From assembly GCA_017881465.1 (NCBI GenBank), contig JADGQV010000006.1:1-46879 (forward strand): a stretch of 46,879 bases of DNA. Reading direction: 5' to 3'. The translations under genes were made by a program, and so were the position numbers. Shown in pieces: positions 20,116 through 22,935 of the stretch. The notes under the pieces are model-generated. The model did not search any database and was not told where the DNA came from. It was given only the letters and a program-made list of their open reading frames with translations. This stretch comes from Gemmatimonadaceae bacterium. GTDB taxonomy: Bacteria; Gemmatimonadota; Gemmatimonadetes; Gemmatimonadales; Gemmatimonadaceae. Positions within the stretch are counted from its first letter, which is position 1. Every line of letters begins with the position of its first letter.

Positions 20116-22029
20116 CTAGAACTCCATCTGCGAGCCCAGCTCCACCACGCGATTGGGTGGTATTCCGAAAAACTCCGTCGCGGGGCGGGCGTTGCGCTGC
20201 ATGAAAATGAAAAGCCGCTTGCGCCAGTGCGCGAGCGGCTTGTTTCCGGTGGGGATGAGGTTCTCGCGGCCGAGGTAAAACGTGGTCTCCGTTGGCTTGG
20301 CGATGATGCCGCGCTCGGCCGCCAGCGCGAGAATCTCGGGCACGTTGGGCGTCTGCATGAAGCCGTACTTTGCCTTGATGCGCCCGAAATTGTGCGGAAA
20401 GCAGGTCACCTCGATGCGCTCGGTGATCGGAACTTCCGGCACCTGGGCGGAGACGATCGAAAGCAGAACCACGTTCTCGTGCAGCACCTTGTTGTGCTTG
20501 AGGTGATGCAGCAGCACCAGCGGGGCGTTCTTCGACTCGGATGTCAGGAACACCGCGGTCCCCGGAACACGCGGGGGCTTGAAGCGCTTGTCCGGATTTT
20601 CGTCGCCCAGATCCCTGAGCAGCGCGTCGAGAGGGATCGAAGCATCCACCAGCAGGCTGCGTACGATCAGGCGTCCACGCTGCCAGGTCGTCATCAAGGT
20701 GAAAATTCCGAGCGCGATGACGAGAGGCACCCAGCCTCCCTGCACGATCTTGAGCATGTTCGCGGAGAAGAACGCAAGATCGATGATCAGGAAAAAGGCG
20801 GTAAGGACGCCAGCTCGCCAGACACTCCACTGCCAGTGCGTCCGTGCCAGCACGTAGAAGAGAATCGTCGTGATGGTCATCGTCCCTGTGACGGCGATTC
20901 CGTACGCCGCGGCGAGCGCGCTCGAAGATCTGAACATGAGCACCACGAGAATGCAGCCGAGTCCGAGCGCGCGGTTTACTTCGGGAACGAATATCTGCCC
21001 TGTTTCCTGTTGTGAGGTATGGACGATCTGCACGCGCGGACTGTAGCCGAGCTGCACGGACTGGTGCGTGAGTGAGAATGCGCCGGAGATGAGAGCCTGC
21101 GACGCGATGATCGCGGCGATCGTTGCGAGCGCGATCAGCGGATACTGGAGCGCGCTGGGCGCCAGCAGGAAGAACGGATTGACCGCGCTCGCCGGGTCCC
21201 GCAGGATCAGCGCGCCCTGGCCGAAATAGTTCGCCAGCAGCGCCGGCAACACCAGGAGGAACCAGGCGAGGCGGATCGGCCGCTTGCCGAAGTGTCCCAT
21301 GTCGGCGTAGAGCGCCTCCGCTCCGGTGACGGCCAGGACTACGGCTCCGAGGAGAACGAATCCGGCGTGCCCATGCCGAACGAAAAACTCCAGGCCGTAC
21401 AGCGGATTCGCCGCGGCGAGGACCTGCGGGGCCTGCAGAATTTCGGCCAGTCCGAGTCCCCCAATCGTCCCGAACCAGACGACCATCACGGGCCCGAATA
21501 TCCGCCCGACCTTGGCGGTGCCGTGCTGCTGGAAGAAGAAAAGCGCAGCGAGTATCGCGACGGTGAGGGGGAGTACCAGGTGCTGCCATTGCGGAGCCAC
21601 CACTTCCAGACCTTCCACGGCGCTCAGCACGGAGATCGCCGGAGTGATCACGCCATCGCCGTAGAGGAGCGCCGCTCCGATCAATCCGAGCGCGATTATC
21701 GTCTTGCGACGAAAGGAGTCCGCATCGCGCCGCTGCTTCTGAAGAATGAGCGCCAGCAACGCGAGAATTCCGCCCTCACCGTTGTTGTCCGCCCGCATGA
21801 TGAAGATGATGTACTTGATGCTGACGATGACTATCAGCGACCAGACGATCAGCGACAGAACGCCGTAGACGTTTTCCGGCGCCGGAGCGAGGCCATGCTC
21901 CGGCTTGAAGCACTCGCGCAGGGCATAGAGGGGACTGGTGCCGATGTCCCCATAAACGACGCCTAACGCGAGAAGAGTGAGTTTTGCGAGATGGTGGCCG
22001 CTCGGACGAGCTTCGAGGTTAGTGCTGAT
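20116..22029 (-). CDS. kup: Potassium uptake protein Kup (apparent non-canonical AUC start)
   Basis: Low-affinity K+/H+ symporter with about 12 helices and a soluble C-terminal domain (KRLFIFMQRNARPATEFFGIP). The first ATG in frame is 21798 (MRADNNGEGG), but that lies inside the conserved part. The frame upstream of it still encodes the family's essential N-terminus: LALGVVYGDIGTSPLYALRE near residues 20-39 and then the SLIVWSLIVIVSIKYIIFIM helix. Between the in-frame TAG at 22041-22039 and ATG 21798 there is no ATG, GTG or TTG. ATC at 22029 would give STNLEARPSGHHLAKLT as the N-terminus and a 637-residue protein, close to the usual 620-630. An AGGT lies seven bases before it. The start is therefore AUC, another rare codon, or the result of a base change. 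Confidence 0.85.
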   Translation of the reverse strand: MSTNLEARPSGHHLAKLTLLALGVVYGDIGTSPLYALRECFKPEHGLAPAPENVYGVLSLIVWSLIVIVSIKYIIFIMRADNNGEGGILALLALILQKQRRDADSFRRKTIIALGLIGAALLYGDGVITPAISVLSAVEGLEVVAPQWQHLVLPLTVAILAALFFFQQHGTAKVGRIFGPVMVVWFGTIGGLGLAEILQAPQVLAAANPLYGLEFFVRHGHAGFVLLGAVVLAVTGAEALYADMGHFGKRPIRLAWFLLVLPALLANYFGQGALILRDPASAVNPFFLLAPSALQYPLIALATIAAIIASQALISGAFSLTHQSVQLGYSPRVQIVHTSQQETGQIFVPEVNRALGLGCILVVLMFRSSSALAAAYGIAVTGTMTITTILFYVLARTHWQWSVWRAGVLTAFFLIIDLAFFSANMLKIVQGGWVPLVIALGIFTLMTTWQRGRLIVRSLLVDASIPLDALLRDLGDENPDKRFKPPRVPGTAVFLTSESKNAPLVLLHHLKHNKVLHENVVLLSIVSAQVPEVPITERIEVTCFPHNFGRIKAKYGFMQTPNVPEILALAAERGIIAKPTETTFYLGRENLIPTGNKPLAHWRKRLFIFMQRNARPATEFFGIPPNRVVELGSQMEF

Positions 22030-22143
22030 TTGCGCGACCTATAGAGGTTCAGGCCACCCAACTGCCGGCGGCTTTGACCCCGGAATTTCCGCAAGCGCGC
22101 GACCCTTTGCAAGGCCGATACCTCGTACGTAAAAAACAGACGC

Positions 22144-22168
22144 TAACGCGGGCATATCGCTTGCGTTA
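22144..22168. promoter_or_regulatory. Inverted repeat upstream of csbD
   Basis: TAACGC and GCGTTA are exact 6-base arms separated by 13 bases, centred about 58 bases before the csbD ATG (22214) in the gap between divergent kup and csbD. The spacing and position would suit a dimeric regulator or an alternative-sigma promoter. No good -35/-10 pair is obvious, so this is a weak call. Confidence 0.3.
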
Positions 22169-22213
22169 TGAGAGGCACAACAGAAAGCACCTGATTCTAC
22201 CGAGGAGGGTTAA

Positions 22214-22414
22214 ATGAAGGATCTAAAGGAAAGGGGTCTCGAGAACCAAGTCAAAGGAACCGCGAAGGAAATGAAAGGGAAGATCCGCGGCAATCTGGGC
22301 GATGCCACCGACAATTCCAGCGAGCACATCAAGGGGCGCGCTGAAGAGCTCAAGGGCAAGATCCAGAAGAACTTCGGAAAGGGCGAGAGAAAAGCCGCCC
22401 CGGATAACGTCTGA
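22214..22414 (+). CDS. CsbD family stress protein
   Basis: 66 residues, hydrophilic and lysine-rich, with the CsbD signature (NQVKGTAKEMKGKI). Two related halves are visible: KGTAKEMKGKIRGNLGD and KGRAEELKGKIQKNFGK. This matches the antiparallel helical pair of the CsbD fold. In Bacillus, csbD belongs to the sigma-B general stress regulon; the molecular role is unknown. A strong AGGAGGG site lies five to six bases before ATG. It is a single gene closed by a strong intrinsic terminator at 22436. Confidence 0.92.
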   Translation: MKDLKERGLENQVKGTAKEMKGKIRGNLGDATDNSSEHIKGRAEELKGKIQKNFGKGERKAAPDNV

Positions 22415-22435
22415 CCTTTCGAAGGGATAACGACA

Positions 22436-22480
22436 AAGAGCGCCGGTGCAGTCTCTGCACCGGCGCTCTTCTTGTTTTCG
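22436..22480 (+). terminator. Rho-independent terminator after csbD
   Basis: A perfect 16-base stem (22436-22451 with 22455-22470) closes on a 3-base TCT loop. It is GC-rich in the middle and followed by a T-rich tract (CTTGTTTT). It sits 21 bases after the csbD stop and 22 bases before the end of the convergent Spy-like gene. The A-rich 5' side (GACAAAGAG) may give partial bidirectional termination. Confidence 0.9.
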
Positions 22481-22491
22481 GGCGTTCATTC

Positions 22492-22935
22492 CTAGTAAGG
22501 TGAAGCTCCAGGTGGCGGCACTGGAGGATTTCCAGCCGAGTCTCCGCCTCGACGCTCAGCGAGGTCACGGCGCGCGGCCGCGCGCATCCTCTCGAGCTTC
22601 GCCTGCTGGTCCGGATTCAGCAGTCGCTTGATCTGCGCGTGAGTACTGTCGCTAACTACCCGCGCCAGGACCGCGATCGAATCGAGCTGCGGCTTCACCG
22701 GCTTGTAGAGCGTGACGATCTGCCTATGCTTCTGCTCGATCAGCGAATCAACGGATGCCTGCTGGTCGGGAGTGAGCTTGAGCTCTTCGGCCATTCTCTG
22801 CCGATATGCGCGCGGTCCATGCATGTCGCGGCCATGCTTTGCGTCCATCACCCGGTCGGCGGTGAAACCCAGCGCGACGCCCGCGACGAAAGCGCCGAGC
22901 AGGAACATCATTGCGTAACCCTTTGAGCGTTCCAT
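22492..22935 (-). CDS. Spy/CpxP/CnrX-like periplasmic protein with N-terminal membrane anchor
   Basis: 147 residues from ATG 22935 (GAGG six bases upstream; the longer open frame to 23256 overlaps the anti-sigma gene and is not coding). One N-terminal helix (AMMFLLGAFVAGVALGF) anchors it. The His/Met-bearing segment DAKHGRDMHGPR and the helical motifs LKLTPDQQASVDSL and LLNPDQQAKLERM follow, the LTxxQ pattern of periplasmic chaperones and metal sensors. The C-terminus is Pro-rich (PPVPPPGASPY). It is the last gene of the sigma / anti-sigma operon, eight bases after the anti-sigma stop. A role as sensor or as chaperone for envelope stress is inferred. Confidence 0.8.
   Translation of the reverse strand: MERSKGYAMMFLLGAFVAGVALGFTADRVMDAKHGRDMHGPRAYRQRMAEELKLTPDQQASVDSLIEQKHRQIVTLYKPVKPQLDSIAVLARVVSDSTHAQIKRLLNPDQQAKLERMRAAARRDLAERRGGDSAGNPPVPPPGASPY

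Follow-up and report, generated by a model that had tools for sequence, protein, structure and literature searches.

The kup gene on the minus strand of the window, i.e. of the whole 46,879-nucleotide stretch of Gemmatimonadaceae DNA analysed here, very likely initiates translation at an AUC codon at position 22029. In this frame, the stop codon TAG (22041-22039) is followed by GTC GCG CAA ATC AGC ACT, with the ATC at 22029-22027, and the frame then stays open from 22038 to its stop codon at 20116-20118. This amounts to 640 codons, or 637 when counted from the ATC (coding sequence 20116..22029, encoding a 637-amino-acid potassium uptake protein). A reading-frame scan detected no ATG, GTG or TTG between the TAG and the ATG at 21798-21796, an internal codon 78. 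Besides, the ATC is the sole codon between the stop and the conserved GVVYGDIG motif that is one base away from ATG, and a Shine-Dalgarno-like AGGT (22040-22037), overlapping the TAG, lies seven nucleotides before it. The first-pass annotation had proposed the AUC start from this arrangement, and its coordinates were correct on the minus strand; the proposal itself gains support from the conservation of the codon across species and gene copies, from the onset of coding constraint at the ATC and from the weak AGGT upstream. The host genome (G000) is a metagenome-assembled genome of 2.58 Mb in 198 contigs, is 93% complete and contains a single kup match.

The N-terminus of Kup lies upstream of the first canonical codon

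Being the first ATG, GTG or TTG of the frame, the ATG at 21798 would probably be picked by a standard gene caller. If Kup indeed started at this downstream canonical codon (or, in the sister genome G003, at a GTG 52 codons after the stop), the product would be a truncated transporter, in the window one of 560 amino acids. Several observations argue against this. With the TIGR00794 model (cut-off 539.6 bits), the 637-amino-acid form scored 584.9 bits and passed, whereas the 560-amino-acid form fell below the cut-off with 497.6 bits. The long form also matched PF02705 (632 bits vs a cut-off of 24.8) and PF22776, while its score of 754.3 bits with NF008015 (PRK10745, the equivalog model for low affinity Kup) stayed below the cut-off of 883, so that the assignment stops short of this narrower model. 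The first helix carries GVVYGDIGTSP at residues 23-33, with Asp28 (codon 21946..21948) as the aspartate of the YGD motif; in the NF008015 alignment, residue 13 falls on profile position 8, which makes Asp28 the equivalent of D23 in Escherichia coli Kup and of D36 in KimA. According to the account in PMC6994465, D23 is essential in E. coli Kup and mutation of D36 abolished potassium uptake by KimA. The kup of the window has both the family and this essential aspartate in common with these two transporters, and a protein started at 21798 would lack the residue. Moreover, the 77 codons that would be skipped are constrained at the protein level (see below), and the first canonical codon sits in different places in the window and in G003. 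We therefore regard a downstream start as extremely unlikely. As to the earlier claim that annotation from the ATG would cost 77 residues, and with them the selectivity helix, the figure was exact, and the lost part contains the D23 equivalent. Automatic annotation could thus drop from Kup a helix that harbours an essential residue.

Coding constraint sets in at the ATC

To locate the onset of coding, we aligned eight sequences, namely the window copy (L001) and seven relatives. After the ATC, variable columns were distributed over codon positions 1, 2 and 3 as 18, 12 and 51 (75 columns each), compared with 29, 30 and 26 before it (45 columns each). The most conserved bins of the alignment were the 15 bases before the ATC (0.87 invariant) and the first nine bases from it (0.89), as opposed to 0.40 just upstream. 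They support a conserved initiation block, ATAGGTCGCGCAAATCAGCACT, at 22021..22042. Over codons 2-77, comparison with L001 gave dN and dS values of 0.074 and 0.471 for L004, 0.065 and 0.656 for L005, 0.066 and 0.541 for L006, and 0.163 and 1.285 for L009. The pair L001/L002 (dN 0.030, dS 0.035) is too close to be informative, and L007 and L008 carry a two-codon deletion. Genes in stretches of the sister genome G003 were also ranked by how strongly the sequence ahead of the first canonical start resembles coding DNA; here kup came first among 545 genes (664 kb) and third among 927 (1.06 Mb).

These data also bear on the idea that translation enters the kup frame from further upstream, either from a canonical start in another frame followed by a frameshift, or by readthrough of the TAG. 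TTG and GTG codons do exist in other frames upstream of some of the genes, such as a TTG at -32 in L001. Yet there was no codon-like substitution pattern upstream of the ATC, and the in-frame stop varies in both kind and place (TAG at -12, TGA at -15, TAA at -21 and -27), which speaks against readthrough. In L010 and L015, none of the frames contains a canonical start between its last stop and the ATC; for these two genes, the frameshift that the first-pass annotation had listed as a counter-explanation is excluded. Altogether, we consider entry by frameshift or readthrough highly unlikely, and initiation at the ATC itself remains our preferred reading.

An isoleucine codon at the probable start is conserved in 17 kup genes of the genus

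A Kup match was present in 17 of the 19 genomes of the genus, and 17 distinct kup genes of the same lineage, from 15 genomes, had a readable 5' end. From the 23 match rows we had left out L003 and L021 (no 5' end), L023 (a second piece of the L012 gene), L022 (a contig-end fragment whose 5' region is the same as that of L009, likewise with ATC), as well as L016 and L020, which fall outside the kup lineage in the tree and carry canonical codons. At the place of the ATC, all 17 genes have an isoleucine codon (16 ATC and one ATT), located in each case 24 codons before the second valine of GVVYGDIG. The near-cognate search accepted ATC, ATT or ATA within codons 20-26 before the motif, and the neighbouring conserved codons agree with position 24. 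While codon 1 is isoleucine throughout, codons 2-8 vary among these genes. Given that the isoleucine codons of these kup genes are mostly ATC anyway (562 of 830), the prevalence of ATC over ATT and ATA is not in itself significant. Twelve genes (that of the window and 11 others) have no ATG, GTG or TTG at least nine codons before the motif. In the other five (L011, L012, L017, L018b and L019a), the frame includes a canonical codon ahead of the isoleucine codon as well, which means that AUC need not be their start.

The host genome being a metagenome assembly in 198 contigs, one might suspect a sequencing or assembly error that turned ATG into ATC. This suspicion, also voiced in the first-pass annotation, is refuted by the relatives: all 17 genes, which come from 15 genomes, carry ATC or ATT at this codon, and none carries ATG. 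We assign it next to no probability. A different non-canonical codon nearby, for instance the GUC at 22038, would be another candidate. GTC follows a TAG at the same place as in the window in nine of the 17 genes, and Streptomyces sigR provides a precedent for a GUC start (described in PMC5472188). However, GTC is missing at that place in the remaining eight genes, as opposed to ATC or ATT in all 17, and the GTC of the window directly adjoins the TAG with no purine Shine-Dalgarno sequence before it. We hold a start at this or another nearby non-canonical codon to be just as improbable as the downstream start, and the AUC at 22029 to be the start codon by far best in line with the relatives.

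Outside the genus, the picture differs from that of the genus kup. We examined 109 kup records, 51 from the same family (in which 166 of 179 genomes have a kup match) and 58 named ones, the latter from 54 of 80 named loci; the 130 records at the outset included three repeats (127 distinct). Each of the 109 genes has an in-frame canonical start lying 14 or more codons ahead of the reference valine. When only starts at that distance or beyond are counted, the one closest to the valine is most often found 20-24 codons ahead of it in the 58 named records. At 24 codons ahead, the ATC falls within this range; the first-pass annotation had placed it where a Kup N-terminus should begin.

In a quick tree, 15 copies of the genus formed one group (SH-aLRT 80) nested within the family, L017 being too short for inclusion. 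Duplicate copies in the same genome, i.e. L010 and L018b in G011, and L011 and L019a in G015, have kept the ATC or ATT codon. Most likely, judging from these sequences, the AUC start arose once (or reached L013 by recombination) and was retained in duplicates. Its retention in the copies of the genus, duplicates included, probably dates back to their common ancestor, and the weak start is therefore probably under selection. This persistence through speciation and duplication offers a natural case in which to ask why an inefficient start stays on a central transporter. As a separate observation, L013 (G016:C174) has a 5' end of the ATC type, yet its core clusters with a pair of genes from another genus that start at ATG; recombination within the gene or chimerism of the contig could account for this.

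Ribosome binding and the upstream region

AGG starts at -11 in ten of the kup genes, and one of the trimers AGG, GGA or GAG starts between -14 and -10 in 15 of the 17, L011 and L019a having no Shine-Dalgarno trimer. Pairing with the anti-Shine-Dalgarno sequence is predicted to be weak, at -2.5 to -5.8 kcal/mol, and fell individually below the 5% level relative to shuffled sequences in L009 and L015 alone; the -3.6 kcal/mol of L001 is not significant on its own. In the sister genome G003, Shine-Dalgarno 4-mers preceded 15 of 43 unambiguous ATG starts, compared with three of 43 in a control window. Two further control sets from G003, in which starts were poorly chosen, gave no signal (99 starts) and a small bump (237 starts). 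A published survey that includes the class Gemmatimonadetes gives the Shine-Dalgarno consensus as AGGAGGUGA (PMC10783764), to which AGGU belongs.

The alignment of the eight sequences revealed a second block of conserved columns further upstream, CTTGCAAAG...GCTTGCGGAAATTCCG (22081..22113, minus strand), which may be a promoter or operator. There is also a small inverted repeat, ACCT-CTAT-AGGT (22037-22048), recognisable in L001, L002, L004 and L006-L008, albeit weak; it could cover the Shine-Dalgarno sequence. An Rfam search of 21500-22700 returned seven hits, all under their gathering scores and all within 22399-22594, and no curated riboswitch family just upstream of kup. A gene for a CsbD-like protein (PF05532) is located at 22214-22414 on the plus strand, divergent from kup.

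Possible consequences of a weak start for Kup synthesis

We envisage that the weak AGGU Shine-Dalgarno sequence would position the 30S subunit over the AUC, which the initiator fMet-tRNA would presumably read with a mismatch at the third position. Kup would then start with (formyl)methionine and include its full first helix. As AUC is inherently inefficient, Kup synthesis would probably be held low and be sensitive to the stringency of initiation exerted by IF3. By analogy with published weak-start genes, we infer for kup such a low, initiation-sensitive rate of synthesis, and its tuning by IF3, or by initiation fidelity in general, appears plausible. Except for pieces at contig ends, the IF3 proteins of the genus look complete, and so there is no obvious loss of discrimination. 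The sampled stretches yielded a single methionine tRNA (CAT anticodon), which by eye is not initiator-like.

With regard to physiology, we searched the genus for TrkH and KdpA and found TrkH in none of the 19 genomes, several of which are incomplete, and KdpA in three of 19. Kup may hence be the main potassium importer of the genus.

Relation to known weak-start systems

IF3 discriminates against starts of the AUU, AUC and AUA type (PMC5472188, PMC2268962), a property underlying the autoregulation of infC, and limits the GUC start of Streptomyces sigR, which is misannotated in databases (PMC5472188). By the account in the same source, very few natural non-canonical starts in bacteria have been characterised experimentally. 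A close parallel to kup is infC, a chromosomal gene with a conserved AUH start that shows ATC or ATT at its apparent start in the present genus as well. However, infC encodes the discriminating factor itself and closes an autoregulatory loop, whereas the product of kup is a membrane transporter, for which no such loop is apparent. Like kup, sigR is a gene for something other than IF3 with a rare start, which in its case limits the product (PMC5472188). The two differ in that the GUC of sigR was demonstrated experimentally and sets the ratio to the anti-sigma factor, as reported there, while the AUC of kup is predicted here from sequence. Finally, the Staphylococcus aureus genes ccpN (AUA) and cvfC1 (AUU) share with kup a conserved non-canonical start, and their reporters reached about 10% of AUG expression in poor medium, that of ccpN rising to as much as 30% when the medium was rich (PMC13009471). 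Both have an extended Shine-Dalgarno sequence, in contrast to the weak AGGU of kup.

The kup gene would accordingly join a known kind, that of the conserved non-canonical starts exemplified by infC, sigR and ccpN, new aspects being the gene and the persistence through duplication. To our knowledge, the phylum is also new among such cases. Among the titles and abstract openings listed from the openly licensed PMC literature, none dealt with a non-AUG start of a bacterial kup, which is weak evidence of absence.

Other possible unusual starts in the genus

The gene at rank 6 of the 927-gene scan of G003 looks like prfB, which is known for its programmed frameshift, and the scan thus does catch unusual 5' ends. 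(The names prfB-like, rluD-like, coaBC-like, rpoZ-like and comEC-like derive from sequence recognition rather than from a family search.) Ranking above kup were a comEC-like frame apparently split by a frameshift and an rluD-like gene.

This rluD-like gene, for a pseudouridine synthase, probably starts at CUG, to judge from its sequence: seven of eight loci read, out of 18 fetched, show a CTG where the conserved N-terminus begins, preceded by GGAG (L251-L253, L258, L259, L264 and L265; the G000 copy is L253). Of these, L258 has an additional GTG further upstream in frame, and the exception, L260, has ATG. At rank 7, a coaBC-like gene has GCG and no canonical start in eight genomes (L213-L219 and L221; the G000 copy is L215), where seven other genomes of the genus (L222-L228) have GTG, ATG or TTG at this position. 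The GCG lies 5 nt after the stop of an upstream rpoZ-like gene and is preceded by GGAG, with ATC and ATA codons nearby, so in these eight genomes the gene possibly has a non-canonical start, at the GCG or at the nearby ATC or ATA. For infC, 19 of 20 loci were read (L159-L177; L178 is a fragment), and the apparent start was ATC in seven and ATT in 12 of them; in eight of the 19, the frame offers no canonical codon ahead of this start.

It is conceivable, if rather doubtful, that the range of start codons in use in the genus is wider than usual (AUC or AUU for infC, AUC for kup, CUG for the rluD-like gene and possibly the coaBC-like start, with GCG at what would be its ancestral start position), and that kup and the other weak starts make up an IF3-dependent translational regulon tying bulk potassium uptake to initiation fidelity. 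As to the comEC-like gene, the apparent split over two frames lies in G003:C12 at about 147887-149926.
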